NCBI GenBank assembly: GCA_024516035.1
Contig: CM044966.1
Location: 21,797,185 to 21,861,184, forward strand
Direction of reading: 5' to 3'
Length of the DNA: 64,000 bases
Origin: Bactericera cockerelli
Lineage: Eukaryota; Arthropoda; Insecta; Hemiptera; Triozidae
Within the stretch, counting starts at the first letter, position 1; the number at the start of each line of letters is the position of its first letter. The notes beneath the pieces were generated by a model. That model worked only from the letters and a program-made list of their open reading frames with translations, did not search any database and had not been told where the DNA came from. Of this stretch, positions 9,793-60,120 are shown in pieces. The position numbers and the translations under genes were made by a program.

Positions 9793-9795
9793 TAT

Positions 9796-10367: not shown

Positions 10368-10368
10368 G

Positions 10369-13320: not shown

Positions 13321-13349
13321 CAAGTTACTGTTCGGGACGAACAATTTTT

Positions 13350-13362
13350 AAGGAGGGGATAG
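13350..13362 (+). other. Polypurine tract
   Basis: AAGGAGGGGATAG directly upstream of the 3' LTR, the expected plus-strand primer site. Confidence 0.85.
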
Positions 13363-19167: not shown

Positions 19168-19916
19168 TGCAACTATTTGTTAAAATTTTTGTATGTTTCT
19201 TTATAGCGTGTAGGGAAGGAAACACAAAGAACACAAGTGAACCAGATATTATCTAGAATTCTAGAGGATTGTTATAATCAGGAATACATGCCAAGTATTG
19301 CTTCTTGCAGCAGATTACATGAAAAGTTTTCCTTACAAGAAGTTCTGTCTTGGGTAGTTGGGTGGACTAGTCTTGTTCAATCTGGAATCAAAACAATAGT
19401 CTAAATTAGGAGATGTTTGCATTTATTATACCTGATTTTTTCCGATTACTAATATTAAAAAAAATTTGGAAGTAAAATATACACAACAAGATTCAAAATT
19501 ATATGTGCTATGATTGATTGAAACTCGACTTGAGGGAGGGTCTCTGCTATCTGTAATTTGATCTTATTCTTTTTGTCGGCCACTATAGTTAAAATATTCA
19601 TATGTGGTCAACATACTCAGTTACTCAGATTCTACTTTTGATAATCAATTTTTCTAAGGCAAATGAGAACTATTCAAAAGTTAGAACATCCATTCATCCA
19701 AAAATAACTGAATCCCTGACTAGGTTAAGAAACAGTCAATAAACAGTGCTTTTTATTATGATGTTTATTCTGTTCCATTTAAAAAAAATTGATTAAGTAT
19801 AGCTTCAACTTCATCAACTACCTTTGCCTGGTGTCTCTGTCTTACTGACAGGCAATTGTTCACTGACGAGAGTGTTATGTGTCCACTTTCACTACAGAAC
19901 TGGATACTAGACCAAG

Positions 19917-20040
19917 GGCAGAATTAATAGACATTTTTGTAATGCTTGTGTGGCGTTCAGTCATGGATTGCGTACTGTGTAAGATGGGGAAAACCGATGA
20001 TTAGAAATGACTTGAGTTGTAGAATTAATTCATTTGGCAG
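19917..20040. mobile_element. Degenerate 129-bp MITE (copy B)
   Basis: Contains GCAGAATTAATAGACATTT and GATTGCGTACTGTGTAAGAT, homologous to 7190-7318; terminal repeats are eroded. Confidence 0.65.
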
Positions 20041-20385
20041 ATTCAAAAGTTTGGCATTAATTTGGCAGACTCACATTTCTTTTGGCTTTAGACTTGACTA
20101 ATATTCCATGAGGAAAATCAAATCCGGCTTCTCAAATTACAAAACGGCGAACGCGGCATCGACGTTATGAGACCAGTAAATTTTTAAATAGTTGCGCCAT
20201 TAACCAAAGGGGTATTTTTTTTGTTGATAAAAGAATTCCATTTTAGCTTTTCTTTCACGAAAATGGAAAAATTTGGAAATACCGAACCTGGAATTTTTTT
20301 TCCAATAGAAAAACACGGCTGCACTTAGCTTCCACACTATTCATGAAAGAAAAATGCGTTTGGCTACTTAATAAAAGGAATGTTA

Positions 20386-24038: not shown

Positions 24039-24200
24039 TCAGAGCTTGAACACGGGGTAGCAGGCGTGGACGCCGAAGTGGAACTGAACGGAGCGCGGGG
24101 GGCGGGAGGCAGAGTCTACCCCCCTCACCCCCCCCGAGCCTGTGGCGAACAGTTTCACCACCACGAAGTTGGTCTTAGCGATGCGGATCAAGTCCAGTAC
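24039..24200 (-). CDS. NAA35: NAA35 exon 12 (terminal)
   Basis: Acceptor CTCACCAG; encodes [19 protein letters not shown], a short Gly/Arg/Ser-rich segment, then [16 protein letters not shown] and TGA. 162 nt. The YxPVxKL ending matches the family C-terminus. Confidence 0.92.
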   Translation of the reverse strand, partial: VLDLIRIAKTNFVVVKLFATGSGGVRGVDSASRPPRSVQFHFGVHACYPVFKL

Positions 24201-27200
24201 CTGGTGAGAGAGATGTATTATTATTATAGTATTTTTTTTTTTTTTAATGGACATAACATCATTTAGAACTTTAATACTTTAAAGTAATCTAAACGACAAT
24301 ACTAATGTCCTAACAAGGCATACAAACTAAGGGTTATAAACTTAACTTTAACATTTTATACAGACATTCCCTGCTCACATTCCAGCCGGAACAGATCACC
24401 AGAGAGATTATTATTCAACAATTTAGATCAATCTTTATTTACATTTTTTTATATACAGGTACAGTCAAAAGGTATAATTAATTAAATATAAACAAAGTTT
24501 GATCAAGGGTGGTGATAATGCCTTTGGCATTCTCTTCCGAATGAGAGATTATAGTGATTATCAGAGATTATAGATAGTGACCATGGTCCGGCTGAAGTGT
24601 GTTGCAGAGTGTCATGGCTCTACTTATTGGCGCTTCTTGCAGTTTAGTAAATTGGGGATCAGGAACCTGAAATAGTATGCTTGAAGTTGGTCTTGGCGAT
24701 GTGGATCAGGTCCAGGACATGGCGAGAGAGAAGTATTATTATTATTATTATTATTATGTTGTTATTGTTGTAGCCAAATTGGCTACAGCTGGAGGGGTGA
24801 GTGATGGTCTCCAGCTAACTTTATTTCAATGTTGGCTCGTCCTGAACCACATATGTCTATGTGCGATTAACCATCATGAGGACTTGGACTTTTGTAAGCC
24901 ATTAAACCCTTAGGAAACTGCAAGCTAGCCTGGCTTGTAAGGTTTGGCTGGTCTGTTCTCTGTTTATAGTCTTCTAGCAAGACACTGGTCTTCTCTCTGT
25001 TTAAAGTCCCCCAGCCAGACTGAATGATAAATTATCATTATAGTATGCTTTATCTTTATTAGGTAGAACAAAAATATATAGAATAGAATAGAATAGAATA
25101 TACCTTGTTTATACTGCCGAGGTAAGACTGAAAAGTCCCTTTACTCCAGCAGTCAAACGGGTCTTATATATTTTATAGGATAAATATTTTACAATTTAAT
25201 ATATAAAAAAACCATGTTTATTTTTTAAAAAATCTGAAAAAGTAAAAAAAAAAAAAAAAAAAAAATTAGATTACAGTGTAAAATACAGTAATATATTAAA
25301 GTAAAATACAATGAAATTATAAAGAAAAATTAAAATACTAAATAGATCGAACAAAGAAACAAGAACAAAAAAGAGAAAGAAGCTAAAGTCCCACCTAAGG
25401 GCGGGGTTATTGCTGTGACAATCTCTTCCACCCAACCCTTTTGAAAGCGTAACTAAAAATAATGTAAGAGATAGAAGAAAGAAAGAAATAGAAAAAAAAA
25501 AAAAAAAAAAAAAAAATAGAAGTTTTTTTAACAATAAATATATACATCATTGAGGTTGTATTTTTTTTTATTATCAAGTCCAGAACCTGGAAAGAAAAAA
25601 AATACATCACTGAGCGTGCGTGCTTGTTTTTTTTTTTTTTTTTGAACAAGTCAAGAACCTGGCAAGAAAAATATAAATCATTGATTTTTTTCACTGTGTT
25701 ACTTGTGGGTCTAGGTTATGTTACCTGTGGGTCTGGGTTGTGTTAAATGTGGGTCTGGGTTGGGTTACCTGTGGGTCTGGGTTGGGTATGGACTCGAGGA
25801 TAGTGCGGGCGCTGTGGAAATGCTTGCAGGCAGCTATGTAGAGTCCCACCACCGCGTCGCTGCTGTTATCTGGGGGAACAAATAAACAACAATTTAGGAC
25901 CACTCCTAGGAATACTACTAGAAACCAAAATCCATTACATGAAACACTTGTACAAAAAACTATATCTTTTTGTCCGTCCCGGTTGCTCAGTGGTAAAGGC
26001 GGCACTCTGTGAATCCAGAGATTCCAGAGGTCGCGGGTTCGAAACCAAGCCGGGACGTGAGAAGTTGAGAAGTTATCCTCCCATTTGGAATTTTTACCAA
26101 TAATATGTATTGTCTTGGGCTTACTGCTGGAATAATGGGACTATAAATAGTCCTAATTGGGCAGTATAAATAAGGCGATATTATTATTATTATTATTCTT
26201 TCTTCAAGCCCTTCAATCGTTTTATATTTCTTAAATTTTTTGGAATATTGTTCAACATTTTTGGGATTTGATGTTTGGTTAGCCTTTCGATATAATTGTT
26301 GTTATTAGTTATTATTATACACAGAGGTAATGCTGTGAGTACTGGAGGAACTTTCCCGACCTCTCAAAAATTGGAAGAAATCTTTTATTTGTAAGATGTT
26401 CGTTATCTCAAATTTAAAACTAAACTAAATTAATAAAAAATTTTTTGTTAAATGTGGGTGTTATATATTTTGTTTGTCTTGTATTGTAACTATTTAAACT
26501 ATTTTCAATAAGGTCGATGACCTCACCTGGTAGCAAGTGAGATATGCTGTCGAGGAAACTCGTTGTACTGCATGTGAGGGGGGGGGGGGTGGTGACTAGG
26601 TGGGAGAGGGGGGGGGGGGGGAGACTCACCTGGTAGCAGGTGAGATATGCTGTCGAGAAACTCGTTGTACTGCATGTGAGGGGGGGGTGGGTGGTGACTA
26701 GGTGGAGAGGGGGGGGGGGGGGGAGACTCACCTGGTAGCAGGTGAGATATGCTGTCGAGAAACTCGTTGTACTGCATGTGAGGGGGGGGGGGGGTGACTA
26801 GGGGGGGGGGGGGGAGACTCACCTGGTAGCAGGTGAGATATGCTGTCGAGGAACTCGTTGTACTGCATGTGAGGGGGGGGGGGGTGACCAGGTGGGAGAG
26901 GGGGGGGGGGGGGGGGGGAGACTCACCTGGTAGCAAGTGAGATATGCTGTCGAGAAACTCGTTATACTGCATGTGAGGGGGGGGGGGGACTCACCTGGTA
27001 GCAGGTGAGATATGCTGTCGAGAAACTCGTTGTACTGCATGTGAGGGGGGGGGGGGGGGGGAGACTCACCTGGTAGCAGGTGAGATATGCTGTCGAGAAA
27101 CTCGTTGTACTGCATGTGAGGGGGTGACTAGGGGGGGGGGAGACTCACCTGGCAGCAGGTGAGATATGCTGTCGAGGAACTCGTTGTACTGCATGTGAGG

Positions 27201-30200
27201 GGGGGGGGGAGACTCACCTGGTAGCAGGTGAGATATGCTGTCGAGAAACTCGTTGTACTGCATGTGAGGGGGGGGTGACTAGGGGGGGGGGGAGACTCAC
27301 CTGGCAGCAGGTGAGATATGCTGTCGAGGAACTCGTTGTACTGCATGTGAGGGGGGGGGGGGGGGGGGGGGGGGGGGGAGACTCACCTGGGAGCAGGTGA
27401 GATATGCTGTCGAGGAACTCGTTGTACTGCATGTGAGGGGGGGTGTGACCAGGTGGGAGAGGGGGGGGGGGAGACTCACCTGGCAGCAGGTGAGATATGC
27501 TGTCGAGGAACTCGTTGTACTGCATGTGAGGGGGGGTGACGAGGTGGGCGAGGGGGGCGAAGCGGTGCTCGTAGCGGACCCGCTCCGAGGAGAACTCGGG
27601 ATGGGGGGGGGAGGGGAGTTTGCCCTCCGCGCTGAACCCGAGCAGAGCCTGGAACATAACCAGGGGGGGGGGGGGGGGTTACACATGATGCAGTTAATGG
27701 GGGGGGGGGGGGTATTTTTATTATTCAACATTCAACTGGAAGAAGGAAAAGGAAAAAATTCCTCCTTCAAAAAAAAAATGACTTGCTTCCAGTTTGTTCA
27801 TTTTATTCCAGTTGCATCCATTTTGGTTAAGGTAGGATCACACTATATGGCACAGATGCCATATTTTCTATGGCGATAAAAAAAAACGAATGGCACATAT
27901 AATATATGGCACTCACACGATGCCATATAATGTGGCAAAAAACTCTATGGCATTGTATGTCTTCCCCCTTGCCATAGACAAGCCCGTCAGTCGTCACCAT
28001 ATCATATTGTAGACCATGTGTGTGATGAAGCACTCACACGAATGCCATAGATCCTGCCATACGTCTATGGCACCAAAGAAAAAACTTGTCGCCATAAACC
28101 CAAATAGTTCTATGGTCATGTAAACAAAGACCGATTACACGCTATGGCCGTCTGGCTGGAGGACGTTAAACAGGGAGAAGACCAGTGTCCCGCTAGAGGA
28201 CTATAAACAGAGAACAGACTAGGCAACCCTTACTAGCTTGCAGTTTCCTAAGGGTTTAATGGCTTGTACAGTAAAGTCCAAGTCCTCATGATGGTTGATC
28301 GCACATAGAAATATGTGGTTCAGGACGAGCCAACTTTGAAATGAAGTTGGCTGGAGACCATCACTCACCCCTCCAGCTGTAGCCAAGCTGGCTACAACAA
28401 CAACAACAAAGATTTCACTCGTTTATTTAAGGTATATATACATACATAGGTTTTATTATTTTAAGTTTTCATATTTGTGTTAATCACTTTCGTGACACTA
28501 CACAAACTCGCTTTACTAAATCTACGCTGAAACCGGGACTTGAACCACCGACCTCCAGGTTACAAGTCCGCCGCCTTATTGATCAAGCTACATTTATTTA
28601 AGGTATACATACATAGGTTTTATTATTATTAAACACTTTATTAAACATAAATAGACATATCTCTATATATAAAACAGAAAAAAGGACTACCTACCTATGT
28701 TTGTTTGTCCGGAGTTGTTCAGCCAAAACGGTAAGAGGTAGCGAAAAATGTCTCAGAATTGACCCCCCCAAAACCATTATCGCTTTGTCCAGAAAAATTA
28801 TAAAAACTTCAAAAAGGCATTGCTGTCCAGCAGTACGGCCATACCTTAGTAAATTTGAAATTTAGTCCCGTTGCAAAGCACGGGCAAACGGCTAGTGTAC
28901 AATACAATTCCAGGTTCGGTATTTTCAAATATTTCCATTTTATCCCATGGGCAAATGGTCAACTTCACCATATTCGTGAAAGAAAAATGCGTTTCGGTAC
29001 TTTTAAAGATAAACAATGGACTCAACCTATAAAAGAACAGCTGGAAGTAAGAATTTTCTACTTCCATTTTGGTTAACCAAACTGGAAGTAGGAAGAAGAA
29101 AAATTTCCTCTTCCAAAAGAAAAATGTCTTGCTTCCAGTTTGATCATTTTATTCCAGTACTTACTTTCCGAGTCCATGTGTCATGGTGGTGGAAGGATTA
29201 ATATGGGTGAACCCTTTGGACACCCAGAACTATTGTTCTGGGCTCCTTCCGTGTCCAGTGTGTAGTGTATGGTGTATGAGTAGTTTGTTGAAATTATGCA
29301 CTTAAAACTGATAGTTAAAAAAAAAATTATTGTTGTTGTTGTAGCCAGCTTGGCTACAGCTGGAGGGTTGAGTGATGGTCTCCAGCCAACTATATTTCAA
29401 AGTTGGCTCGTCCTGAACCACATTTTTCTATGTGCAATCAACCATCATGGGGACATAGACTTTTCTTTATAAGCCATTAAACCCTTAGGAAACTGCAAGC
29501 TAGCCTGGCTTGTAAGGGTTGGCTAGTCTCTTCTCTGTTTTTAGTCCTCTAGCGAGACACTGGTCTTCTCTCTGTATAGCTACAAGCTAGCCTGGCTTGT
29601 AAGGGTTGGCTAGTCTGTTCTCTGTTTATAGTCCTCTAGCGAGACACTGGTCTTCTCTCTGTATAACTACAAGCTAGCCTGGCTTGTAAGGGTTGGCTAG
29701 TCTGTTCTCTGTTTATAGTCCTCTAGAGAGACACTGGTCTTCTCTCTGTATAACTACAAGCTAGCCTGGCTTGTAAGGGTTGGCTAGTCTGTTCTCTGTT
29801 TATAGTCCTCTAGCGGGACACTGGTCTTTTCCCTGTTTAACGTACCCCAGCCAGACTAGACGTATGGTGTATGTGTAGTTTGTTGAAATTATGCACTTAA
29901 AACTGACAGTTTATTTTATTCCAGTTGCATGCACTTTGGTTAGAAAGAAAAATACGGCATTTGATTAATAAGACTTGATAGGAGAAATTTATTTATAAGA
30001 TAAAAATTTATTGTCTTTTTTCTATGTATCTTAACTATATTTCTATGTATTTTAACCATATATATAATATATATATTAATATCAAATAAACATGGGTTTA
30101 CCCAGTCAATTTACGAAAATTAAAATTAAAAGACTCACCTTGAAGTAGTCCCCGCACAGGTTCTGTACATCAGAATCTCTAGCAAGACTCACCTTGAAGT

Positions 30201-31767
30201 AGTCCCCGCACAGGTTCTGTACATCAGAATCTCTAGCAAGACTCACCTTGAAGTAGTCCCCGCACAGGTTCTGTACATCAGAATCTCTAGCAAGACTCAC
30301 CTTGAAGTAGTCCCCGCACAGGTTCTGTACATCAGAATCTCTAGCAAGACTCACCTTGAAGTAGTCCCCGCACAGGTTCTGTACATCAGAATCTCTAGCA
30401 AGACTCACCTTGAAGTAGTCCCCGCACAGGTTCTGTACATCAGAATCTCTAGCAAGACTCACCTTGAAGTAGCCCCCGCACAGGTTCTGTACATCAGAAT
30501 CTCTAGCAAGACTCACCTTGAAGTAGCCCCCGCACAGGTTCTGTACATCAGAATCTCTAGCAAGACTCACCTTGAAGTAGCCCCCGCACAGGTTCTGTAC
30601 ATCAGAATCTCTAGCAAGACTCACCTTGAAGTAGCCCCCGCACAGGTTCTGTACATCAGAATCTCTAGCAAGACTCACCTTGAAGTAGCCCCCGCACAGA
30701 TTCTGCAAGGTCTGACTAGTCTGTTCTCTGTTTATAGTCCTCTAGCGAGACACTGGTTAGTTGCATGCACTTTGGTTAGAAAGAAAAATGCGGCTATTGA
30801 CTAACAAGACTAACGGGGTTAAGTGGCAGAGAATGCCCAAGGCATTAACTTCGCCCCGGATTACAAAAAAAACAATTGTAATAAAAATTAATATTTCTTT
30901 TTGTACATATTTCTAAGTTTTTTTTTTTTTTTTTTTAATTTATTGTTATATTTTTTGTTGTTGATGATGATTGTTTTGTAAAAAAATAAAGTGTAAATAA
31001 ATAAATAAATAAAAAAGAGCACACTGAAGAAAAAGACGTGTTGAATGAAATATATTATATCGTTTGAAAAAAAAAAAAAAAAAAAAAACATTTTAGGAGG
31101 TCGATCGCAACGATTTTCTGAAAATTCGGGCAGCCAATTCCAAAAATAAAATAAAATAAAATAAAAAAATAAATAAAATAATTCTCACCTTGAAGTAGCC
31201 CCCGCACAGATTCTGCAGTGCCTGGTACATCAGAATCTCGCGTGAGCTCCCCCCCGCGCCGCCCCCTTCTTCTTCCCCTTGCCCCCGCCCTTGCTCCCCC
31301 GCCGCCCCTTGGTGCCACCCCCCCCACCGGGTGCCGCCGCCGCCTGGGCGTCCTGCTCCGCCAGGAAGTTGTCCGCCCGTGTGAGCGCCGAGATGAGCCA
31401 GGCGTACAGGAACTCGTACAGATACCTGGCGGTGGGGCAATTTTTTCAATTCAATTCAATTTATTTATTTATTGTGCAAAAATTTCAATACAAAAAGTAT
31501 GTGTTTCACATTAAAAAGATTATAGAAATATAGAAATTATATAATCTAGAAAGAAATTATTAAAAGAAAACAATGCTTAACTTAAAACAAAATAAAATAA
31601 AATGATTTCCTTTACTTATTATTGTCTGACCTGGTTGTAGTGTTTTCAGTGAAACCCTTGCAATTAACTCTGTTGACCTAATTAGATCTATCATTATTAT
31701 TATACAACGCTTTTTTAGATATAAATGGACATTACGTACATACCTACAAATAATTATTTTAAAAATG

Positions 31768-31802
<35 letters not shown>

Positions 31803-49800: not shown

Positions 49801-52800
49801 CCCACCATTTTCTATACGAGAAGAGAGATTACAATCAGAATAATAATAATAATATCGCCTTATTTATACTGCCCGATTAAGACTATTAAGCCCCATTATT
49901 CCAGCAGTAAGCCCAAGACGCATTATTATGTGGTAAAAATCCCAAATGGGAGGATCACTTGTCATGTCCCGGATGGGTTTCGAACCCACGACCTCTGGAA
50001 TCTGTGGATTCATAGACCGTCGCCTTTACCACTGAGCTACCGGGAATGTTAAATTAGAAGAGAAGACGAGAAGAGAGGTTGCAATTAGAAGAGAAGACGA
50101 GAAGAAAGGTTACAATTAGAAGAGAAGACGAGAAGAGAGGTTACAATTAGAAGAGAAGACGAGAAGAGAGGTTACAATTAGAAGAGAAGACGAGAAGAAA
50201 GGTTACAATTAGAAGAGAGGTTACAATTAGAAGAGAAGACGAGAAGAAAGGTTACAATTAGAAGAGAAGACGAGAAGAAAGGTTGCAATTAGAAGAGAAG
50301 ACGAGAAGAGAGGTTACAATTAGAAGAGAAGACGAGAAGAAAGGTTGCAATTAGAAGAGAAGACGAGAAGAGAGGTTGCAATTAGAAGAGAAGACGAGAA
50401 GAGAGGTTACAATTAGAAGAGAAGACGAGAAGAGAGGTTACAATTAGAAGAGAAGACGAGAAGAAAGGTTACAATTAGAAGAGAAGACGAGAAGAAAGGT
50501 TACAATTAGAACAGAAGACGAGAAGAGAGGTTACAATTAGAAGAGAAGACGAGAAGAAAGGTTACAATTAGAACAGAAGACGAGAAGAGAGGTTACAATT
50601 AGAAGAGAAGACGAGAAGAGAGGTTACAATTAGAAAAGAAGACGAGAAGAGAGGTTACAATTAGAAGAGAAGACGAGAAGAAAGGTTGCAATTAGAAGAG
50701 AAGACGAGAAGAGAGGTTACAATTAGAAGAGAAGACGAGAAGAGAGGTTACAATTAGAAGAGAAGACGAGAAGAGAGGTTACAATTAGAAAAGAAGACGA
50801 GAAGAGAGGTTACAATTAGAAGAGAAGACGAGAAGAAAGGTTACAATTAGAAGAGAAGACGAGAAGAAAGGTTGCAATTAGGAGAGAAGACGAGAAGAGA
50901 GGTTACAATTAGAAGAGAAGACGAGAAGAGAGGTTACAATTAGAAGAGAAGACGAGAAGAAAGGTTACAATTAGAACAGAAGACGAGAAGAGAGGTTACA
51001 ATTAGAAGAGAAGACGAGAAGAGAGGTTACAATTAGAAGAGAAGACGAGAAGAAAGGTTACAATTAGAAGAGAAGACGAGAAGAGAGGTTAAAATTAGAA
51101 AAGAAGACGAGAAGAGAGGTTACAATTAGAAGAGAAGACGAGAAGAAAGGTTACAATTAGAACAGAAGACGAGAAGAGAGGTTATAATTAGAAGAGAAGA
51201 CGAAGAGAGAGGTTACAATTAGAAGAGAAGACGAGAAGAAAGGTTGCAATTAGAAGAGAAGACGAGAAGAGAGGTTACAATAGAGAAAGACGAGAAGAGA
51301 AGACGAGAAGAGAGGTTACAATTAGAAAAGAAGACGAGAAGAGAGGTTACAATTAGAAGAGAAGACGAGAAGAAAGGTTACAATTAGAACAGAAGACGAG
51401 AAGAGAGGTTACAATTAGAAGAGAAGACGAGAAGAGAGGTTACAATTAGAAGAGAAGACGAGAAGAAAGGTTACAATTAGAAGAGAAGACGAGAAGAGAG
51501 GTTACAATTAGATGAGAAGACGAGAAGAGAGGTTACAATTAGAAAGAAGACGAGAAGAGAGGTTACAATTAGAAGAGAAGACGAGAAGAGAGGTTACAAT
51601 TAGAAGAGAAGACGAGAAGAAAGGTTACAATTAGAAAAGAAGACGAGAAGAGAGGTTACAATTAGAAGAGAAGACGAGAAGAAAGGTTACAATTAGAACA
51701 GAAGACGAGAAGAGAGGTTACAATTAGAAGAGAAGACGAGAAGAGAGGTTACAATTAGAAGAGAAGACGAGAAGAAAGGTTACAATTAGAACAGAAGACG
51801 AGAAGAGAGGTTACAATTAGAAGAGAAGACGAGAAGAGAGGTTGCAATTAGAAGAGAAGACGAGAAGAGAGGTTACAATTAGAAGAGAAGACGAGAAGAG
51901 AGGTTACAATTAGAAGAGAAGACGAGAAGAGAGGTTACAATTAGAAGAGAAGACGAGAAGAAAGGTTACAATTAGAAGAGAAGACGAGAAGAGAGGTTAC
52001 AATTAGAAGAGAAGACGAGAAGAGAGGTTACAATTAGAAGAGAAGACGAGAAGAAAGGTTACAATTAGAAGAGAAGACGAGAAGAGAGGTTACAATTAGA
52101 AGAGAACGAGAAGAGAGGTTACAATTAGAAGAGAAGACGAGAAGAGAGGTTACAATTAGAAGAGAAGACGAGAAGAAAGGTTACAATTAGAAGAGAAGAC
52201 GAGAAGAAGGTTATAGATGAAATTTAAGTTTTTTTTAAGGAATGTATTTTTTTTTTTTTTTTTTTTCCGTTGGTTCAAATTTTTTTTTTTAATTTTAATA
52301 CAGTTTATTTATTTATTTATTAAATTGATCAATTTTAAAATCCACCATTTTCTAGACAGATGAAATTTATAGATGAAATTTCAGTTTTTTTTTAGGAATG
52401 TATTTTTTTTTTTTTTTTTTTTTTTCCGTTGGTTAAATTTTTTTTATTTAATTTTAAATACAGTTTATTTATTTATTAAATGGATCAATTTTAAAATCCA
52501 CCATTTTCTAGACAGATGAAATTTATAGATGAAATTTAAGTTTTTTTTAGGAATATATTTTTTTTTTCCCGTTGGTTCAAATTTTTTTTTTAAATTTTAA
52601 ATACAGTTTATTTATTTATTAAATTGATCAATTTTAAAATCCACCATTTTCTAGACAGATGAAATTTATAGATGAAATTTAAGTTTTTTTTTTAGGAATG
52701 TATTTTTTTTTTTTTTCCGTTGGTTCAAAAAAATTTTTAAATACAGTTTATTTATTTATTAAATTGATCGATTTTAAAATCACAGGAATGTATTTAATTT

Positions 52801-54709
52801 CATTATACAATTTTTTCATTACAATCCCCTTGAAGTACAATATCTTTTGTACTTTTAGGGGGTAGAGAGGTTACAATTAGTAGAGAAGACGAGAAGAGAG
52901 GTTACAATTAGAATGGGCGACCTTTTTTTTATAAGGAACCATACTAAGTTTCAGCTCAATTGGACTTATTATTATTATTATAGTATGACTTATTAGGTAA
53001 GACAAAAATATAATCTATTTATTTTTTCTTTATAATTTTATTGTATTTTACTGTATAAAGGGGTTCGAAGCCCACCATTTTCTAGACGAGAAGAGAGATT
53101 ACAATTAGAATGGGTGACCTTTTACTATATAAAAAAACCATACTAAATTTCAGCTCAATTGGACTTGTTCTTTTTTATACGTGAATATCTCAATTAGTCA
53201 ACATTTTCCTCTGTCTTTCTTTACACATATATGTATCTATCTAGTCAACCTCTTACTACATTTCAATACTTATGTTCTCCTCATTTTATTATCTTCATTT
53301 ATTGTCTTTAAAATAAGTAAATATATTATATTCAAGTTAGTTTTAAGACTAGATATAAGAAAAGACTAGATATAAGCATGACAATCCAGCGAGGTAATGC
53401 TGCCAGTGTGTTGGGAGCATTGCCATCAGAAGAACTGACATCCATATTCTATCTGTAAATTTTAATAAAATATACCTTATATTAGATTTAGAAAATTATA
53501 TACACCGTAAGGTAAACCAACAATAAAAATAAATGATGAATAAGAAAAAAGGTTTAGTTCCTCACCCCATGATGGGCGGGTACGCCGAGGGGTACACTGG
53601 CAATGATGCCCGGCACCAGATCACTGCACGTAGCCAGAATCTTCTGGATCTCTCCCACAGACGGGTTCTCCTGGATCCGGTTGAAAGCGAGGAAGCACTG
53701 GTACAGAAGCCGGGAGAATTTGAGACGCAGCGTCAGGGCCCTCATATGATCCTCACTCTGAAATAATAATAATACTAAAAGTTATCATACTTGTGTTAAT
53801 CACTTTCGTGATATCACAACTACTCAAACTCGCCTTACTAAATCGACGCTGAAACCGTGACTTGAACCACCGACCTCCAGGTTAAAAGTCTGCCGCCTTA
53901 TCGATCAAGCTACTGAGGTCGGTGAAAAATAATACTAATAATAATAACACTCTTCTGGTTGAAAGCAAGGAAGCACTGGTAGAGAAGGCAGGAGAACTTC
54001 AAGACGTGTGCCCTCATCTATATCTATAAAAGAAAGCTGTCTGTATGTATGTATGTGTGTATGTATGTATGTGTGTATGTATGTATGTGTGTATGTATGT
54101 TCTTTATACAAATCCACACCGTTTGACCGAGAAACCTGAAATTTTGCACATAGGTCCGCTTGGATCAGGAAATTCTTCTAGGCTAGATTATATCTCCCTG
54201 AGGTTAAGCTACAATGAGTAAGGATAAAAATGGATGGGTGACGCAAAAAAAATGCACGTTTTTTGACATAAATGACATTTTTTCTCGAAATTTGTCGCGA
54301 CGACCTATCAACTCAAAGCGAGAAAGTTTTAGGCAAGGGTTTGAGCTTTCAATTGACATATCGATCGCGAATTTCTGATGAGCCGTTCTTGAGCTACGCC
54401 GGGTAAGGTAAAAAAATGGATGGGTAACATGTAAAATATTCACGTTTTTTGACCTAAATGACATTTTTTCTCGAAATTTGAAGTGACGACCTATCAACTC
54501 AGAGCGAGAAAGTTTTAGGCAAGGGTTTAGGCTTTCATTTGACATATTGATCGCGAAATTCTGATGAGCCATTCTTGAGCTACGCCGGGGAAGGCCAGAA
54601 AATAGATGGGCGACAAAAAATATTCAGGTTTTTTTTCAAACCTAAATGACATTTTGTGTGTGTGTGTGTGTGGTTTGTGTGTGTGTAGGGTTTTGTGTGG
54701 TGTGTTGTG

Positions 54710-54749
<40 letters not shown>

Positions 54750-57294
54750 TGTGTGGTGTGTGTGTGTGGTGTGTGTGTGTGTGTGTGGTGTGTGTGTGGT
54801 GTGTGTGTGTGTGTGTGGTGTGTGTGTGTGGTGTGTGTGTGTGTGTGTGGTGTGTGTGTGTGGTGTGTGTGTGTGGTGTGTGGTGTGTGTGTGTGTGTGT
54901 GGTTGTGTGTGTGTGTGTGTGTGTGGTGTGTGTGTGTGGTGTGGTATGTATGTATGTTGTGTGTGTGTGTGTGTGGTGTGTGCGTGTGTGTGGGTGTGTG
55001 TGGATGTGTGTGTGTGGGTGGGTGTGTGTGTGCGTTGTGTGTGTTTGATGGGCTGGCGAAGCGGCGGGTGTAACCCGCTAGTATGATATATGAGGGCACA
55101 CAAATAAAACTCTGAAATACCTACTCATAGATTTAGATGATAGATAACAAACTCTGGTCGAGAACTGAAGCATCCCTTTTGCATAGGAAATAGCATACAA
55201 CTACCTCGAAAGAAAATGGCGGACACCATACTAATAGCATATGGTTTCCGCCATTTTCTTTTATTCATACAGGGTGTTATTGAAGTAAAGAAAATAATAT
55301 GCATATTATACATTATACATACAGAATTTCATGAAAATCGGGTGTACCGTTCACGAGATATAAGGGTTTAAGCAAAAAGTTAGTGGTCAGGCGCATGATC
55401 TCTTTCACACAGAACTGTTAGTACGAATTTTATGAATTTACAGATCGTCTCCTACAGATTGTCTTCTATATGTGTGCAAAATTTCAACAAAATTCGTTCA
55501 GTAGTTTCTGAGATTTGCGCGTTACAAGGAATATTTTTAACAGACCGACAGACGGACACAAAGCCAAAGTTGCTCAGGAGGTTATGAAACGTCCAGAAAT
55601 ATGAAAAAAATGTCCAGAAATATGAAATCGGAGCAAAAAAATATTTTTTTTTTTACAAAAAAGAACACAATACTTCCGATTTCTAATATTAGAAATTTTT
55701 CGGAAGTAATTGTGCACATTCCAGAAGTATAAATGTAGGGATAAAAGATCATCCGGGCAGTATTGACTTACCTTATTGCCGGCCAGTTTATTGTTCAGAC
55801 TATCCTCCAGCTCTCGCAACATGGCCACAGTTTTCTGCGGACACACATCTGGGTTTAGGCGATAGCCGTACATCATTGGCTGAAAGTCCTCCTCCTCATA
55901 TACCACTCCTGATGGGAAAATAAAATAACAGTAAAAATTAATTAACACATAAAATAATAATAAAATAAATAAACAAATAAAATAAATGAACAAATAAAAA
56001 ATTAAAATAAAATAATTGATTTTTTTAAATGTCTATTTAACATCTATGACCTGTTGAATACAACACCTGCTCTTCTAGTGTCACTGAAACTAAGCATTGT
56101 TCAGCCAGGTTAGAACATATAAGTTTAAGTAACTACTTAATAATATTATACATATTTATATGTATAATGGGTTATACCCATAATGTGTAGCAAAATATAT
56201 ATTAAAAAAACTATAGAATTCCATACACATTCTGTATATTATTATAATTTTTAATAAGTAGGTACCTGGATGCAGTTATAATTTGATTTATTTTACCTCG
56301 ATTGACAAAGTCTCGTATGATTTCAATAACTTTGTGCATGAGTATTGCAAAGGCCCGCATTGTAGGGGCTTCAATACTGTGGGGCTTGTGTAGGTAGATG
56401 TTGGTAAACAGAGTTTGGGCAAGCGAGTGTCCTCCGAGCCATGACACAAGACAGGAGTAGGTCTCATCTATGATACCTGAGAGAAAAAGAAATAGTTTAT
56501 TTCTTAATTAACAATAAAACTAAGTCAACATTTTTGCTCAATTCTAAAAGTACACAGCAATATTATTTTTGTCCTGGTTGCAGGGTTTTCAGTGAAACCC
56601 TTACAATTAACACTGTGATCAAATTAGATCTATTGTGACCAGTTGATTCTATTCAGTTTTAATGTCCTGATTTGAGATAGATAGTCAGGATGGGGTTTTA
56701 CCCTCCATTTGCTGGGAATCTTACAAGCTACCCACATTAACCTCACCCAGCCTGGGTAGGGCCGGAAATGCCAGCCTCACATGTTTGGAGGGGACAGAAT
56801 TTTCTTTGAAAAGTCTACCCCAACCGGGAGTCGGACTAAGTACACAGCATACTAATTAGTAAAACAATCAGTTATTTTTTCTTTGATTCCTTGATTTCTT
56901 TTCATTCTTTGAAAGAACAGTGATTATCTACAAAATGATATGTAGGTGTAGATTATTTTTCTACCTATAACATGAAAAATAATAAATTAAAAAAAAAACA
57001 AAATTTACCAATCTGCACATCAAATGGGATATCTTTGATCTCAATCACTCCGGATGCAACAGCCTTATCAAAGGTCATCACATTTCCACTTCCACGGTTA
57101 CACAACATCCCAGCATCCATCTTTGGATCCATCATCTCGATAGCTGACATGGCCTCAAACAGTCCAAAGAATTCATCGTGGACTAATTCTCCTAAGTGCA
57201 AATACTTGATTGATTCAAAGAAGTCTCCTGTGATATCTACCCAGTTGTAGTTGGCTTCTGTACTCACAGGATTACCACTTGGGTAGTTGCTCAT
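24039..57294 (-). CDS. NAA35: NAA35/Mak10, NatC acetyltransferase auxiliary subunit (12 coding exons)
   Basis: Non-catalytic scaffold subunit of NatC, which acetylates N-terminal Met followed by hydrophobic residues on nascent chains at the ribosome. Exons on the minus strand: 57009-57294, 56297-56476, 55772-55908, 53566-53757, 49067-49240, 44018-44131, 41767-42045, 40236-40414, 31189-31425, 27480-27648, 25769-25869, 24039-24200. All junctions are GT-AG and phases chain to 737 codons if one base is restored in exon 9; human NAA35 is about 725 aa. Diagnostic stretches: [90 protein letters not shown]. Introns 4, 5, 8, 9, 10 and 11 are swollen by tandem copies of the gene's own splice junctions. 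Divergent from NDUFB6. Upstream of the ATG an AG at 57336-57337 may end a 5' UTR intron. Confidence 0.93.
24683..24745 (-). repeat. Partial copy of exon 12 with its acceptor region
   Basis: Minus strand reads [12 protein letters not shown] preceded by TTCTCTCTCGCCAT; the acceptor AG has become AT, so it is unlikely to be used. Confidence 0.8.
24757..25021 (+). repeat. TTG-ended dispersed repeat (GCTACAGCTGGAGG family), copy 1
   Basis: Begins TTGTTGTAGCCAAATTGG and ends near CCCAGCCAGACTG. Copies at 28147-28410 (inverted) and 29328-29857 share TGGTCTCCAGC, CATCATG and GACACTGGTCTTCTC. The CAA-repeat end in the inverted copy suggests a retroposon tail. Unclassified. Confidence 0.7.
25571..25610 (-). 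repeat. Second extra copy of the exon 12 acceptor
   Basis: Minus strand CTTTCCAG followed by codons for VLDLI; the AG is intact. No donor or stop-free extension follows. Confidence 0.7.
25644..25685 (-). repeat. Third extra copy of the exon 12 acceptor
   Basis: Minus strand TTGCCAG followed by codons for VLDLF, then a T/A-rich run; AG intact. Confidence 0.65.
25698..25785 (-). repeat. 22-bp tandem array at the exon 11 donor (4 units)
   Basis: Units at 25698, 25720, 25742 and 25764, each built from the end of exon 11 (CCCAGACCCACAG) plus GTAAC of the intron. Donors are kept in three units and lost in the third (TTTAAC). Confidence 0.85.
25769..25869 (-). CDS. NAA35: NAA35 exon 11
   Basis: Acceptor CCCCCAG; encodes [20 protein letters not shown] and [10 protein letters not shown], donor GTAACC. 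101 nt, ends in phase 0. The conserved family motif is VAASKHF...ILENIPNPD. Confidence 0.9.
25975..26165 (+). repeat. tRNA-derived SINE (GTCCCGG head)
   Basis: tRNA-like head with a perfect 7-bp acceptor stem (GTCCCGG / CCGGGAC), A-box TTGCTCAGTGGTAAAGG and B-box GGGTTCGAAACC; body with CATTTGGAATTTTTACC and TACTGCTGGAATAATGGGAC; ATT-repeat tail. A second copy, inverted, lies at 49848-50045. The body and tail make it a SINE rather than a tRNA gene. Confidence 0.85.
26523..27479 (-). repeat. Tandem array of the exon 10 donor (11 extra units)
   Basis: Each unit holds the end of exon 10 (CAGTACAACGAGTT...CACCTGCTACC), the donor AG/GTGAGTCTC and a C-rich intron piece. Units start near 26523, 26626, 26727, 26818, 26923, 26991, 27066, 27147, 27213, 27297 and 27383. 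Unit length varies because of the poly-C (poly-G on plus) runs, the longest at 27350-27378. Confidence 0.92.
27480..27648 (-). CDS. NAA35: NAA35 exon 10
   Basis: Acceptor TGTTCCAG; encodes [10 protein letters not shown]...[14 protein letters not shown] and [15 protein letters not shown], donor GTGAGT, phase 1. Its last about 49 nt are repeated 11 more times downstream. Confidence 0.9.
27661..27834. other. G-run and dispersed CTTCCAG repeat
   Basis: Poly-G runs at about 27665-27678 and 27700-27712 precede a piece of the CTTCCAGTTTG repeat (27735-27832). No gene. Confidence 0.5.
27835..28146. repeat. Element dense in TATGGCA / TGCCATA motifs
   Basis: About 310 bp with more than ten occurrences of ATGGCA or TGCCAT in both orientations, bounded by related GATCACACTATATGGC and GATTACACGCTATGGC. 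Short motif clusters of this kind are typical of subterminal transposase-binding repeats. No terminal inverted repeat could be fixed. Confidence 0.5.
28147..28410 (-). repeat. TTG-ended dispersed repeat, copy 2
   Basis: Inverted copy of 24757-25021, from GTCTGGCTGGAGGACG to ACAACAACAACAAA. Confidence 0.75.
28490..28602 (-). repeat. tRNA-Lys-like SINE head, copy 1
   Basis: Inverted tRNA-like sequence (CGACCTCCAGGTT...CCGCCTTATTGATCAAGCT) shared with 53790-53925. It is embedded in repeat DNA, not a free tRNA gene. Confidence 0.6.
28660..28895 (+). mobile_element. Short non-autonomous Helitron
   Basis: Begins TCTCTATATATAAAAC and ends in a hairpin (CCCGT-TGCAAAGC-ACGGG) followed by CAAACGGCTAG. 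It lies between A and T. The flanks rejoin a repeat whose other copies are continuous here (GACATA then TGTACAATAC), an independent confirmation of both ends. 236 bp, no coding capacity. Confidence 0.88.
28915..29170. repeat. CTTCCAGTTTGG dispersed repeat
   Basis: Contains GTGAAAGAAAAATGCGTTTC, AAAGATAAACAATGGACT and inverted CTTCCATTTTGG / CCAAACTGGAAG. Parts recur at 7500-7830, 20215-20350, 21100-21232, 27735-27832 and 29905-29960. Unclassified. Confidence 0.6.
29328..29857 (+). repeat. TTG-ended dispersed repeat, copy 3, with an 87-bp internal tandem array
   Basis: The segment CAAGCTAGCCTGG...GTATAACTA is repeated at 29496, 29583, 29670 and 29757 with an 87-bp period; the other two copies of the family have it once. 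Confidence 0.85.
30119..30712 (-). repeat. 54-bp tandem array of the exon 9 donor (11 units)
   Basis: Exactly 11 units of 54 bp. Each carries the end of exon 9 (AACCTGTGCGGG...TACTTCAAG) and the donor GTGAGTCTTG. The five units nearer exon 9 read CGGYFK, as in the exon; the six farther units read CGDYFK. The array lies 476 bp inside intron 9. Confidence 0.93.
30713..31188. other. Intron 9 spacer
   Basis: Between exon 9 and its donor array. Holds a fragment of the TTG repeat (30720-30755), an inverted GGCATTAACTTCGCCCC piece, and long A and T runs. No coding content. Confidence 0.5.
31189..31425 (-). CDS. NAA35: NAA35 exon 9 (one-base frame problem)
   Basis: Acceptor CCGCCAG; completes Trp, then [18 protein letters not shown], a Gly/Lys-rich stretch ([16 protein letters not shown]) and [18 protein letters not shown], donor GTGAGA. 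237 nt. The start and end are in different frames; the switch is needed at the run of seven C (31249-31255), where one more base would restore phase. Confidence 0.85.
31688..32045. repeat. 'GGACAT' interspersed repeat, longest copy
   Basis: Runs from ATTATTATACAACGC through a long poly-A stretch to AAAGGGCGGGGTTATTGCCT and ATGGCAATCTC. Fragments of the tRNA-SINE 3' end (TTTTCAGTGAAACC...GATCTAT) flank it at 31625-31690 and 32085-32170. Confidence 0.65.
32225..32775. repeat. Cluster of ACAGGGTG-ended fragments
   Basis: ATACAGGGTG or variants occur at about 32225, 32350, 32480, 32613 and 32752 at roughly 130-bp spacing, each followed by T-rich sequence. No gene. Confidence 0.55.
32948..40235 (-). 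repeat. About 122-bp tandem array of the exon 8 donor (about 60 units)
   Basis: Each unit contains the last about 100 nt of exon 8 ([10 protein letters not shown]...EYYYIYW) and about 21 nt of intron (GTAACTAGTT and a TTA repeat of three to nine units). The highest-coordinate unit is the functional exon. No unit has a proper acceptor, so they can act only as extra donors; using any but the first would add an immediate in-frame TAA. Units are near-identical except in 34,860-36,190, where single-base deletions are dense. Confidence 0.95.
40236..40414 (-). CDS. NAA35: NAA35 exon 8
   Basis: Acceptor TTCCCAG; encodes [15 protein letters not shown] to [12 protein letters not shown] plus two bases of Trp, donor GTAACT. 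179 nt. Its last about 100 nt seed the 7.3-kb array downstream. Confidence 0.92.
40415..40850. other. Intron 7, LINE-like 3' UTR sequence
   Basis: No gene. AT-rich with AATAAATAAAG near 40652 and AATAAAGCAC near 40720, which look like retroposon 3' ends. Confidence 0.4.
40855..40945 (-). repeat. SINE core fragment
   Basis: Contains the conserved block CATTAACCTCACCCAGCCTG and CGGAAATGCC...GCTCACGTG shared with SINEs at 44190, 56560, 58500 and 63306. Confidence 0.7.
41148..41228 (+). pseudogene. Non-LTR retrotransposon C-terminus (IQRGNAA type)
   Basis: Reads [14 protein letters not shown]...MDQIYNLH and stop. The same ending is found at 42311-42397 and 53378-53458; QRGNAAxxLG...E..F is common at the end of insect LINE polyproteins. 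Confidence 0.55.
41268..41440 (+). repeat. tRNA-derived SINE (CCGTGCCCGAG head)
   Basis: The head has an A-box-like GAGTGAGTTAGCGCGCTAGG and a B-box GGGTTCGATTCCC. A short body contains CTCATACCTCGTGAGG and GGCGGCATTACCAGAG. Confidence 0.7.
41767..42045 (-). CDS. NAA35: NAA35 exon 7
   Basis: Acceptor CCCCCAG; encodes [15 protein letters not shown], a Pro/Gly/Ala-rich insert, then [20 protein letters not shown] and [11 protein letters not shown], donor GTGAGG. 279 nt, phase 0. The GC-rich insert is not conserved in the family as I recall it. Confidence 0.92.
42311..42397 (-). pseudogene. Non-LTR retrotransposon C-terminus (VQRGNAA type)
   Basis: Minus strand reads [20 protein letters not shown]...EEAFVR and TGA, followed by a short 3' UTR with AATAAAA. 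Confidence 0.6.
42604..42657. repeat. Perfect 18-bp hairpin
   Basis: TTGTTCCTTATAGCCGAT (42604-42621) faces ATCGGCTATAAGGAACAA (42640-42657) across an 18-base loop. Probably the core of a small foldback element. Confidence 0.7.
42830..43177. repeat. Fragments of two interspersed repeats ending in an ATA microsatellite
   Basis: 42830-43020 matches, inverted, the start of the 413-1114 insertion (AAAATCCGAAATTTTGGAC). 43018-43177 is the inverted GGACAT repeat ending AATAAAGCGTTGTATAATAA. Confidence 0.6.
43178..44017 (-). repeat. 33-bp tandem array of the exon 6 donor (about 24 extra units)
   Basis: Contiguous with exon 6. Each unit is 19 nt of exon end (CACCCTGCCCTTCCTACAG) and 14 nt of intron (GTAACTATCCTAGG). 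A few units near the low end have an extra ATCATGTGAGG. 33 is a multiple of three and the unit has no stop in the NAA35 frame (repeat [11 protein letters not shown]). Confidence 0.95.
44018..44131 (-). CDS. NAA35: NAA35 exon 6
   Basis: Acceptor CCCTCAG, then [20 protein letters not shown] and a short end GTLPFLQ, donor GTAACT. 114 nt, phase 0. Aligns with the human FCEFSEQSPCVLSRSLLQ region. Its last 19 nt seed the contiguous 33-bp array. Confidence 0.9.
44190..44534 (-). repeat. Full-length tRNA-headed SINE with core domain
   Basis: Flanked by a 12-bp target-site duplication AATACAATGGGG (44178-44189, 44535-44546). On the minus strand: a tRNA-like head (TGGCGTAATGGTTGTGACTA, GAGTTCAACTACC), the shared core (CCAGGCTGGGTGAGGTTAAT), a distal part with GGTTTCACTGAAAACC and a tail of TAAT repeats and A. 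It sits 59 bp upstream of the exon 6 acceptor. Confidence 0.88.
44700..44945. repeat. Three imperfect tandem units with CTTATAGAGAGGTAAATT
   Basis: TTTTCCCTTATAGAGAGG...TTTTATATCCAGGTTTCTCTT recurs about every 85 bp. A related single stretch lies at 41000-41130. No coding content. Confidence 0.6.
45087..45999. mobile_element. 913-bp TIR element with TA target duplication
   Basis: Starts TGAGGCCTTCCACAG and ends GGCGAACGCCTCA, flanked by TA on both sides. The interrupted host repeat resumes exactly (GACATA then TTATATACAA), confirming the ends. Inside, phrases like AAAACTTGTTCATTCC recur. TA duplication suggests Tc1/mariner-type mobilisation; no transposase frame. Confidence 0.8.
46184..46290 (-). 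repeat. tRNA-like SINE head (inverted)
   Basis: GGGATTCGAACGCACGGATC...CTGGATTACCAGACTAGCGCG is an inverted tRNA-like head related to the one at 62822-63012. The SINE-core beginning TTTTTTTAACGTCACTTTCA follows at 46325-46410. Confidence 0.6.
46619..48625. mobile_element. TTAA-flanked element carrying a 5'-truncated LINE
   Basis: Flanked by TTAA on both sides (46615-46618, 48626-48629), with ends CACGTATGAGACGGG and CCGTCTCATATGTATGGTG. The pre-insertion sequence is preserved nearby at 48712-48812 (ACAAATAAAACATTAAATTA), so the whole 2 kb is an insertion. Two palindromes containing CCCACCGGTGGG near 48545 and 48590 resemble those of the TTAA element at 60222-60343. Confidence 0.75.
46680..48155 (+). 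CDS. Non-LTR retrotransposon reverse transcriptase (5'-truncated)
   Basis: Open 491-aa frame. RT motifs in order: [77 protein letters not shown] and a C-terminal thumb/tail ([20 protein letters not shown]). The catalytic aspartates are present ([12 protein letters not shown]). The N-terminal endonuclease is missing. After the stop there is a 3' UTR ending in ATT repeats at 48450-48475. It looks like a Jockey/CR1/L2-type LINE; the clade is not resolved. Opposite in orientation to the host gene NAA35, inside intron 5. Confidence 0.88.
   Translation: MCSKYEHLPNYDESDLIDFNHCQFTEQEVFKALSSLPPKYSSGPDNVPSYVLRKFAALLSDPLCLLFNRSLSSHVFPACWKLSYLIPIFKSGNRCDVGNYRGACIQSAIPKVLDKLITTHLTFSCKHFIADQQHGFTSKRSTVTNLLCYQHDIIQSFQTCSTVHSVYTDVAKAFDRVDTDFLLSKLKSYGIGESFLTWLSSYFSGRTQAVRVGDSLSQPIQVTSGVGQGSHIGPLLFSLFFNDLPRVIKHSSVLLFADDVKLYKTIKCFTDCHLLQNDISSFHQWLSCNGLNLSLHKCFVVEFSRNKSLDFTYNIDGGTLVRVEEIKDLGITLDRKLSFISHTSSLSMRCHRILGYIWRNSKGLSSHAFILLYKALVRSLLEYSCVVWSPHYDIHVKVLERVQKKFMWYFNFRYPNVDLDLPSLRDRRLTADDAFLRKLIVGDIDCSRLLELIKLNCHRRLRNNRTFLIDQCSTNYSYYLPLNRMMRAANS
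48659..48713 (-). repeat. Partial copy of exon 5 (3' end and donor)
   Basis: Minus strand: GCAAAATCACC...CAGACCAGCTTG then GTGAGTATTTTT, matching exon 5 and its donor with a few substitutions. It has no acceptor, but could compete as a donor. Confidence 0.88.
49067..49240 (-). CDS. NAA35: NAA35 exon 5
   Basis: Acceptor CGTATAG, then [18 protein letters not shown]... to NYQTSL, donor GTGAGT. 174 nt, phase 0. It is the only copy with both splice sites; partial copies at 48659, 49405 and 49681 lack one or the other. Confidence 0.92.
49405..49518 (-). repeat. Partial copy of exon 5 (acceptor side), copy 2
   Basis: Repeats the first about 114 nt of exon 5 with the acceptor CGTATAG intact; ends before the donor. 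Confidence 0.9.
49681..49811 (-). repeat. Partial copy of exon 5 (acceptor side), copy 3
   Basis: Repeats the first about 130 nt of exon 5 with the acceptor CGTATAG intact; no donor follows. It is the acceptor-bearing exon 5 copy nearest to the 31-bp array. Confidence 0.9.
49848..50045 (-). repeat. tRNA-derived SINE (GTCCCGG head), copy 2
   Basis: Inverted copy of 25975-26165, with TCCCGGTAGCTCAGTGGTAA and GGGTTCGAAACCC in minus orientation. Confidence 0.85.
50046..52213 (-). repeat. 31-bp tandem array of the exon 5 polypyrimidine tract (about 70 units)
   Basis: The minus-strand unit TAATTGTAACCTCTCTTCTCG plus TCTTCTCTTC repeats the 22 nt immediately 5' of the exon 5 acceptor AG. The unit contains no AG, so the array is about 2.1 kb of branchpoint-like TTGTAAC and pyrimidine tract without any acceptor. 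Confidence 0.93.
52208..52800 (-). repeat. About 150-bp tandem array, four units, containing the exon 5 acceptor
   Basis: Units start near 52208, 52366, 52514 and 52665. Between them GTCTAG followed by AAAATGGTGGATTTT repeats the acceptor and first codons of exon 5. The remainder is T-rich. Confidence 0.85.
53056..53110 (-). repeat. Further copy of the exon 5 acceptor and first codons
   Basis: Minus strand TCTCGTCTAG then codons KMVGFEP, followed by non-exonic sequence. Confidence 0.8.
53378..53458 (+). pseudogene. Non-LTR retrotransposon C-terminus (IQRGNAA type)
   Basis: Reads [20 protein letters not shown]...FYL and stop, followed by AATAAAATATACC. Confidence 0.55.
53566..53757 (-). CDS. 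NAA35: NAA35 exon 4
   Basis: Acceptor TTTCAG; encodes [20 protein letters not shown] to GVPAHHG, donor GTGAGG. 192 nt, phase 0. A displaced partial copy of its 5' half lies at 53952-54016 in intron 3. Confidence 0.92.
53790..53925 (-). repeat. tRNA-Lys-like SINE head, copy 2
   Basis: Minus strand: TAGCTTGATCGATAAGGCGG, CAGACTTTTAACCTG (TTT at the anticodon position) and GGTCGGTGGTTCAAGTCA. Shares the downstream body with 28490-28602. Confidence 0.65.
53952..54016 (-). repeat. Partial, frame-preserving copy of exon 4
   Basis: Minus strand reads [20 protein letters not shown], matching exon 4 ([20 protein letters not shown]) with a 6-nt in-frame deletion. It has neither acceptor nor donor and is cut by the Helitron on its 5' side. 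Confidence 0.85.
54023..55081 (+). mobile_element. Helitron-like element with a long GT microsatellite
   Basis: Begins TCTATAAAAGAAAGCTGTCT after an A and ends in a hairpin (GCGGGT-GTA-ACCCGC) running into CTAG before T. The middle has a twice-repeated unit of about 190 bp (GAGCTACGCCGGG, ATTTTTTCTCGAAATTTG). 54653-55050 is (GT)n with interruptions. No RepHel coding sequence, so non-autonomous. Confidence 0.75.
55318..55712. repeat. Copy of the 413-1114 element, 3' half
   Basis: Shares GTACCGTTCACGAGATATAA, GAGATTTGCGCGTTACAAGG and the terminal near-palindrome CTTCCGATTTC...GGAAGTAAT. It lies 60 bp downstream of exon 3 in intron 3. Confidence 0.75.
55772..55908 (-). CDS. NAA35: NAA35 exon 3
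   Basis: Acceptor CCATCAG at 55909-55910. Encodes [17 protein letters not shown]...NNKLAGNK and ends in phase 0 before GTAAGT. 137 nt. Confidence 0.92.
56297..56476 (-). CDS. NAA35: NAA35 exon 2
   Basis: Acceptor CTCTCAG before GTATCATAGATG. Encodes [20 protein letters not shown] through RDFVNR, donor at 56295-56296 in GTAAAAT. 180 nt, phase 1 to 1. Confidence 0.93.
56560..56837 (-). repeat. SINE with shared core, 12-bp target duplication
   Basis: Flanked by AAGTACACAGCA (56548-56559, 56838-56849). Contains TTTTCAGTGAAACCC, the core CATTAACCTCACCCAGCCTG and a truncated head ending near CAACCGGGAG. Same family as 44190-44534. Confidence 0.88.
57009..57294 (-). CDS. NAA35: NAA35 exon 1
   Basis: Starts at the ATG at 57294. 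Encodes the conserved WVDIT...[16 protein letters not shown] and MDPKMDAGM blocks and ends ...FDVQI plus one base before GTAAAT (phase 1). Confidence 0.93.
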
Positions 57295-59850: not shown

Positions 59851-60120
59851 ATGGGTGGAGGAGGTCGCAAAGGTTACAACTCGGACACCGGAGGTATTGT
59901 CCCAATGAACATTGGAGGACGCTTGATCTACGAGAGGGAACGTTTGTTTGGAATGACAGATGATGAGAGAGCATGGAGAGCCAAGTTTGTGAAGGATCAA
60001 CATTTGTCACCCCATGAGCCTGTTGAGGTTCCACAAGCATACAAGGAGCTTCACAATCCAATTCGTCGGTTTTATCGTGCTCCTGGGGAAAATTTTCAGA
60101 AGTGGCTGAATCCTCGAGTT
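59851..60120 (+). CDS. NDUFB6: NDUFB6 exon 1
   Basis: 90 codons from the ATG; ends ...FQKWLNPRV before GTAAGT. Confidence 0.92.

Follow-up and report, generated by a model that had tools for sequence, protein, structure and literature searches.

Local copies of its own splice junctions in the introns of a psyllid NAA35 gene

In a 64,000-nucleotide stretch of Bactericera cockerelli DNA (hereafter the window), the introns of the gene NAA35 were found to carry copies of the gene's own splice junctions. Local copies spanning an exon edge together with the adjoining intron edge were detected by blastn and TRF at 8 of the 22 NAA35 junctions. Six donors (exons 5, 6, 8, 9, 10 and 11) and two acceptors (exons 5 and 12) are copied, and the copy number per junction ranges from a single displaced copy to about 50–60 at the exon 8 donor. 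The arrays share the anatomical features of the "mirages" described in amphioxus, and NAA35 is an extreme, unusually dense insect case of this rare and little-studied pattern.

Minus-strand translations from the window match human NAA35 (7mx2_B), the auxiliary subunit of NatC, and 12 coding exons bounded by standard GT/AG sites were assigned to positions 57294 to 24039 (Table 1). The closest relatives of the translation of exons 1–8 plus part of exon 9 were an unnamed protein (82% identity) and a protein from Diaphorina citri (78%), followed by proteins from Cacopsylla melanoneura and Cyamophila willieti (76% each), all three species being psyllids; the rest of the 120 matches listed showed at most 57% identity. 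In the assembled sequence exon 9 has a net one-base frameshift in its G-rich middle, after which exons 10–12 can be read without interruption in the new frame. In the protein model of Cyamophila willieti, the G-rich stretch of exon 9 likewise seems to be out of register. Cases like this one warn that errors are easily made in gene models and assemblies close to such arrays.

Table 1. NAA35 exons and copies of exon and junction sequence, in window coordinates.
Feature	Position	Strand	Evidence and remarks
NAA35 exon 1, coding start	57009–57294	-	homology to human NAA35 (7mx2_B) and splice sites; no junction copies
NAA35 exon 2	56297–56476	-	homology and splice sites; no junction copies
NAA35 exon 3	55772–55908	-	homology and splice sites; no junction copies
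NAA35 exon 4	53566–53757	-	homology and splice sites
NAA35 exon 5	49067–49240	-	homology and splice sites
NAA35 exon 6	44018–44131	-	homology and splice sites
NAA35 exon 7	41767–42045	-	homology and splice sites; no junction copies
NAA35 exon 8	40236–40414	-	homology and splice sites
NAA35 exon 9	31189–31425	-	homology and splice sites; net one-base frameshift as assembled
NAA35 exon 10	27480–27648	-	homology and splice sites
NAA35 exon 11	25769–25869	-	homology and splice sites
NAA35 exon 12, coding end	24039–24200	-	homology and splice sites
Displaced copy from within exon 4 (positions 37–82 of the exon)	53954–53999	-	blastn, 87%, E 1e-10
Older displaced exon 5 acceptor copy (exon positions -41 to +23)	53059–53123	-	blastn, 92%
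Array with TAGAAAATGGTGGA motifs resembling exon 5 acceptor (resemblance only)	52211–52781	-	TRF; 143 bp x 3.3
Array from exon 5 polypyrimidine/branch region	50048–52213	-	TRF, blastn; 31 bp x 69; 80% pyrimidine
Two upstream copies of exon 5 acceptor plus about 115–130 bp of exon 5 start	49404–49841	-	in TRF array 49125–49841, period 278
Displaced exon 5 donor copy	48637–48716	-	90% over 80 bp
Exon 6 donor array	43174–44044	-	units of 33 and 44 bp; 23 exact copies of the donor besides the true one
Exon 8 donor array	32948–40336	-	units about 122–134 bp; 50–60 copies; 7.4 kb
Exon 9 donor array	30130–30705	-	54-bp unit; 11 exact donor copies
Exon 10 donor array	26522–27536	-	TRF periods about 68–104 bp, poly-C between units; 11 exact donor copies
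Exon 11 donor array	25695–25784	-	22-bp unit, TRF 4.1 copies; weakest array
Stretch with two weak exon 12 acceptor pieces	25556–25672	-	scores 31 and 23
Displaced exon 12 acceptor copy	24683–24763	-	84% over about 80 bp

Junction copies were sought by same-strand blastn of each exon, extended by 60 bases per side, against the window with an E-value cut-off of 1e-3. As the exons are placed, the copies sit inside introns, beyond the real exon edge. No junction copies of exons 1, 2, 3 or 7 were found within the window, and for exon 4 the same search returned an exon-internal copy only. The initial annotation had named seven boundaries as duplicated, and all seven do have extra copies of exon edge plus intron edge, at uneven strength. 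It had also pointed to displaced pieces of exon 4 and of the exon 5 donor; both are present, the former as the exon-internal copy and the latter as an eighth copied junction. Its claim of separate arrays with differing unit sizes is supported as well, and the sizes it gave agree with ours wherever they can be assigned. Only its unit of "about 150" bp has no clear match; the exon 5 acceptor shows a period of 278, and the intronic array at 52211–52781 one of 143. An NDUFB-like gene (labelled by the look of its protein) adjoins NAA35 with three exons at about 59851–62017. None of its four junctions has exon-edge copies, and its sole match elsewhere is the A-rich intron flank of the second exon.

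At the exon 8 donor, TRF counted 60.4 copies, while 59 exon-derived copies were found and 50 were recovered with a mid-exon anchor. The motif GGTAAC is retained in 48 of these 50, a count with no neutral expectation alongside it. A further apparent sign of donor conservation in this array (0 of 384 sites changed) was discarded as evidence because the donor is itself part of the motif by which the units had been delimited. Exon 8 copies used as donors would hit a stop at once, and 33-bp exon 6 copies used in the same way would add in-frame units of 11 residues. The part of the exon 8 array at 36222–34779 is indel-rich with many single-base gaps, like uncorrected long reads, and these gaps may be assembly noise; its roughly ten copies make up units of 963 and 480 bp, which enter the site counts mainly as insertions. 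Further downstream, the exon 9 array begins about 480 bp beyond the true donor. The exon 11 donor has one further exact copy and two with up to one mismatch, and its array was seen by TRF only, with no blastn match at E 1e-3. For exon 12, the two weak acceptor pieces exceed the maximum score of 21 among 5201 other windows.

The 2166-bp array upstream of the exon 5 acceptor contains zero AG dinucleotides on the gene strand. Selection was weighed as a reason for their absence, but the idea was put aside because the unit itself lacks AG and the copies share descent. Intron 5 also contains, on the opposite strand, a reverse-transcriptase-like ORF of 492 aa (46677–48155; LINE type by look).

Arrays are not restricted to the junctions. 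Intron-only examples lie at 29491–29841, 44722–44938, 52211–52781 and 54218–54634, which makes junctions a preferred location but not the sole one. The placement of arrays was evaluated with 14 TRF arrays in the gene (score at least 100, period at least 15, overlapping rows merged). A TG-rich array within the gene at 54655–55044, for which TRF also lists a period of 43, was omitted as a dinucleotide repeat. Five of the 14 physically span a junction (the donors of exons 6, 8, 10 and 11 and the acceptor of exon 5), compared with 0.69 expected when units of the same size are placed at random (P(≥5) = 2.4e-4, for a gene picked for its pattern). With a microsatellite and two nested arrays removed, the expectation for this same hand-picked gene is 0.66 (P = 1.6e-4). 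It falls to 0.49 (P = 2.3e-5), with the same selection of the gene, when two arrays taken for TE-derived are set aside as well, namely 29491–29841, with dispersed copies in the window, and 54218–54634, so classed by look alone. The initial annotation had argued for a bias of tandem duplication towards splice junctions; this stands as an excess over random placement within NAA35, though not an exclusive one, given the intron-only arrays. The within-gene excess is nominally strong, for a gene that was selected as striking from a genome of many genes.

Differences between the copies and the exons were largely synonymous. Among distinct codon differences, taken from copies readable in the frame of the exon, 34 of 55 (62%) are synonymous. 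This count leaves out ten nonsynonymous calls in exon 10 (codons 12, 15, 30 and 32–37), changes to proline or beside poly-C that were put down to the alignment. The two synonymous calls made at codon 35 stayed in, and the displaced exon 5 donor copy (2 synonymous, 1 nonsynonymous) was added by hand. With nothing dropped, there are 34 synonymous and 31 nonsynonymous differences (n = 65). About 26% synonymous changes are expected if only unconstrained copies drift (0.24–0.30 per exon), and about 41%, derived by hand from 0.26, under equal-time divergence in which the exon accepts synonymous changes alone. Both values are exceeded by the observed share (P = 2e-8 and 1.5e-3, respectively; 5e-6 and 4e-2 with nothing dropped), with the caveat that a variant passed on to several copies is not a fully independent event in each. 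Variants common to at least two copies comprise 18 synonymous and 7 nonsynonymous changes. Singletons comprise 16 and 14, and taken alone they lie above the model of drift in the copies only (P = 1.3e-3) but not above the equal-time model (P = 0.12). At exon 5, for example, all five differences found in both of two copies are synonymous, while the five single-copy differences divide into two synonymous and three nonsynonymous. Much of the copy-exon difference thus seems to have arisen in the functional exon rather than in dead copies, and the copies, with their mostly synonymous differences, seem to preserve a series of states through which a constrained exon has passed.

Two further observations concern the age and exchange of copies. 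In the displaced copy of the exon 5 donor, a Ser codon stands in place of the Gly codon of the exon in the window. At that residue the four closest relatives have Ser in two cases (Cacopsylla and Cyamophila), Asn in one and Met in one, and the copy may retain an older state of the exon. In the exon 8 array, variable sites across 48 units number 97 of 1152 at unit positions 25–48, 1 of 1536 at positions 49–80 and 10 of 2160 at positions 81–125. Similarly, eight of the variants shared among 59 copies fall in codons 28–33 and three in codons 34–59. Variation is crowded nearest the exon-side breakpoint of the duplication, a pattern that conversion from the exon might leave, as might other causes. 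The synonymous excess and the patchy exon 8 variation would fit concerted evolution by conversion or re-copying. Either the copies preserve earlier states of the exon, as their look suggests, or exchange with the exon has corrected them, and a new element here is the hint that constrained exons renew their own intronic copies.

Precedents exist for such arrays, contrary to the initial annotation, which knew of no named system: the amphioxus mirages (PMC3087553, PMC3902484) and a human minisatellite in IFI6. In amphioxus, mirages are tandem repeats across exon-intron boundaries of Adh3, the globins BflGb6 and BflGb9, and TnC, to which PGBD5 is likened; they occur at 5' and 3' boundaries, with many copies carrying AG/GT signals (PMC3087553, PMC3902484). 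The same papers give units of 10–72 bp for Adh3, 60 and 108 bp for PGBD5 and 150–160 bp for the globins, and report length instability in Adh3 and BflGb6 and no disturbance of regular splicing (PMC3087553, PMC3902484). As in mirages, NAA35 repeat units span the boundary at the donors of exons 6, 8, 9, 10 and 11 and at the acceptor of exon 5 (displaced in the case of exon 9 and seen by TRF only for exon 11), and both types of boundary are duplicated. NAA35 differs from them in its insect host, in the involvement of eight junctions of one gene, in the roughly 50–60 copies at one donor and in the presence of displaced single copies. Turri is said to have described in 1995 a minisatellite of the human IFI6 (6-16) gene that provides a single transcript with more than one donor site. 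According to a later source, two downstream repeat units of IFI6 are used as donors (PMC4526556). NAA35 resembles this case in having a tandem repeat that carries multiple donors, whereas IFI6 involves one junction and its downstream donors are used in alternative transcripts. Among the matches listed in our literature searches, which lay mostly outside subscription journals and were judged by title or the start of the abstract, no insect or psyllid report of arrays across existing junctions was recognized. A term search of one psyllid genome paper likewise found no report of such arrays.

The explanation that we favor, and regard as fairly probable, is that these are mirage-type minisatellites seeded by junction-crossing duplications, tolerated since the outer copy splices, and renewed from the exon. 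The process would begin when a short tandem duplication happens to run from an exon into the intron beside it. Such an event would leave the exon and its first donor intact and add intron sequence only, with acceptors as the mirror case, and in most cases the array would then grow by slippage or unequal exchange. The outermost copy would still give a normal splice site, and splicing would remove the remainder, as the anatomy suggests. Exon-internal duplications would usually break the protein, so that selection would purge them and retain the junction-crossing ones. The constrained exon would serve as a permanent seed, and over time copies could be remade from it or adjusted to it by gene conversion. 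An array confined to an intron would lack a protected seed of this kind, which would go some way towards accounting for the local surplus at junctions. Junction-directed cutting machinery would not be required, though it may also be at work.

Several observations bear on this explanation. In its support, the eight copied junctions have different unit lengths, and five spanning arrays were observed where 0.5–0.7 are expected. The largely synonymous differences from the exons, the possibly older state of the exon 5 donor copy, the uneven variation along the exon 8 unit and the like architecture of amphioxus, with its reportedly normal splicing, also speak for it. Normal splicing across the arrays is predicted, and no array-like insertions were seen at these joins in the aligned proteins of relatives, which may lack the arrays. 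Tolerance of splice-removed duplications, an option that the initial annotation also listed, explains why the surviving exon-bearing arrays cross junctions, but tolerance alone fails to explain why intron-only arrays are not far commoner. Other points count against the explanation: the synonymous share surpasses the equal-time expectation only modestly, exon 7 has no copies despite being the GC-richest, the exon 9 array lies apart from its donor, and the exon 5 donor and exon 12 acceptor are represented by displaced copies rather than arrays. A more far-reaching reading, which we entertain only tentatively, is that junctions in the psyllid lineage are genome-wide hot spots of tandem duplication, with exons acting as master templates that re-seed or convert intronic copies. 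If it were true, earlier versions of exons would be preserved in introns as a fossil record, and introns would lengthen in the process.

Two alternatives are compatible with seeding and tolerance, and both appear unlikely to us. The first is a mutational mechanism of the lineage that favors junctions, through breaks or R-loops at donors or through slippage where a GC-rich exon meets an AT-rich intron. The predominance of donors (six against two acceptors) would agree with it, as would base composition: GC content is 0.43–0.50 in exons 1–3 and 0.54–0.74 in exons 4–12, junction copies are confined to exons 5–12, and the exons that have them lie at 0.54–0.69, compared with 0.46–0.52 in the NDUFB-like gene. 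In addition, (ATT)n tracts follow the exon 5 and exon 8 donors and the last exon 6 donor copy, and an AT-rich tract follows the exon 9 donor. On the other hand, exon 7 (GC 0.74) lacks copies, exon 4 (0.58) lacks a junction copy, and the case consists of a single gene chosen after the fact. The second alternative is chance combined with the selection of a striking window, such that arrays are common in the genome and NAA35 is the tail of a distribution. Per-gene P values of 2e-4 to 2e-5 are not extreme against many thousands of genes, and both the intron-only arrays and the uncopied neighboring gene would be in keeping with chance. However, the copied junctions, displaced ones included, number eight and so exceed the five arrays tested, and their unit sizes differ.

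We consider it highly improbable that the arrays represent steps in the gain of introns through tandem duplication of segments carrying AGGT (the Rogers model and its variants). The units do bear AG|GT or similar, and the amphioxus authors suggested such a route. There are also precedents: a tandem duplication of an intron-exon boundary in potato RdRp (PMC4974935), and some novel Drosophila introns, whose proposed origin is tandem duplication of exonic proto-splice sites within coding sequence (PMC2891723). NAA35 shares with these intron-gain cases (ATP2A1, potato RdRp and some Drosophila introns) a tandem duplication with splice signals, but its copies sit within introns, whose far ends they do not make up. 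The next acceptors are outside the donor arrays, hundreds to thousands of bases off and in unrelated sequence. In the Rogers-type arrangement the intron is the duplicate and ends at the duplicate's AG; this reading was put aside because the far intron ends in NAA35 are not duplicates. An assembly artefact, as the indel-rich part of the exon 8 array and the exon 9 frameshift might suggest, is hardly credible for copies that occur in several separate places, include old diverged ones, and differ in unit length and by patterned, mostly synonymous substitutions.

In the literature covered, junction-spanning minisatellites are known from amphioxus and one human gene, and a dense insect case would indicate that they are not confined to chordates. 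The arrays would make it possible to study in nature how the spliceosome picks one of dozens of nearly identical donors. Their copies of older exon sequence would allow the direction of duplication or conversion to be measured. How important the phenomenon is hinges on the genome-wide frequency of junction arrays.

Elsewhere in the window, a large direct duplication (1–7500 and 14651–20245) carries in each copy a single-exon C2H2 zinc-finger ORF, labelled by look. The two ORFs encode 977 aa (3399–6332) and 815 aa (16732–19179) and differ in their numbers of 84-bp finger units and 51-bp N-terminal repeats. Between the duplicates lies an LTR-type element (9792–13934) with gag- and integrase-like ORFs, also labelled by look, flanked by 576-bp direct repeats. 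It is probably a recent insertion, since these repeats are 99.8% identical.
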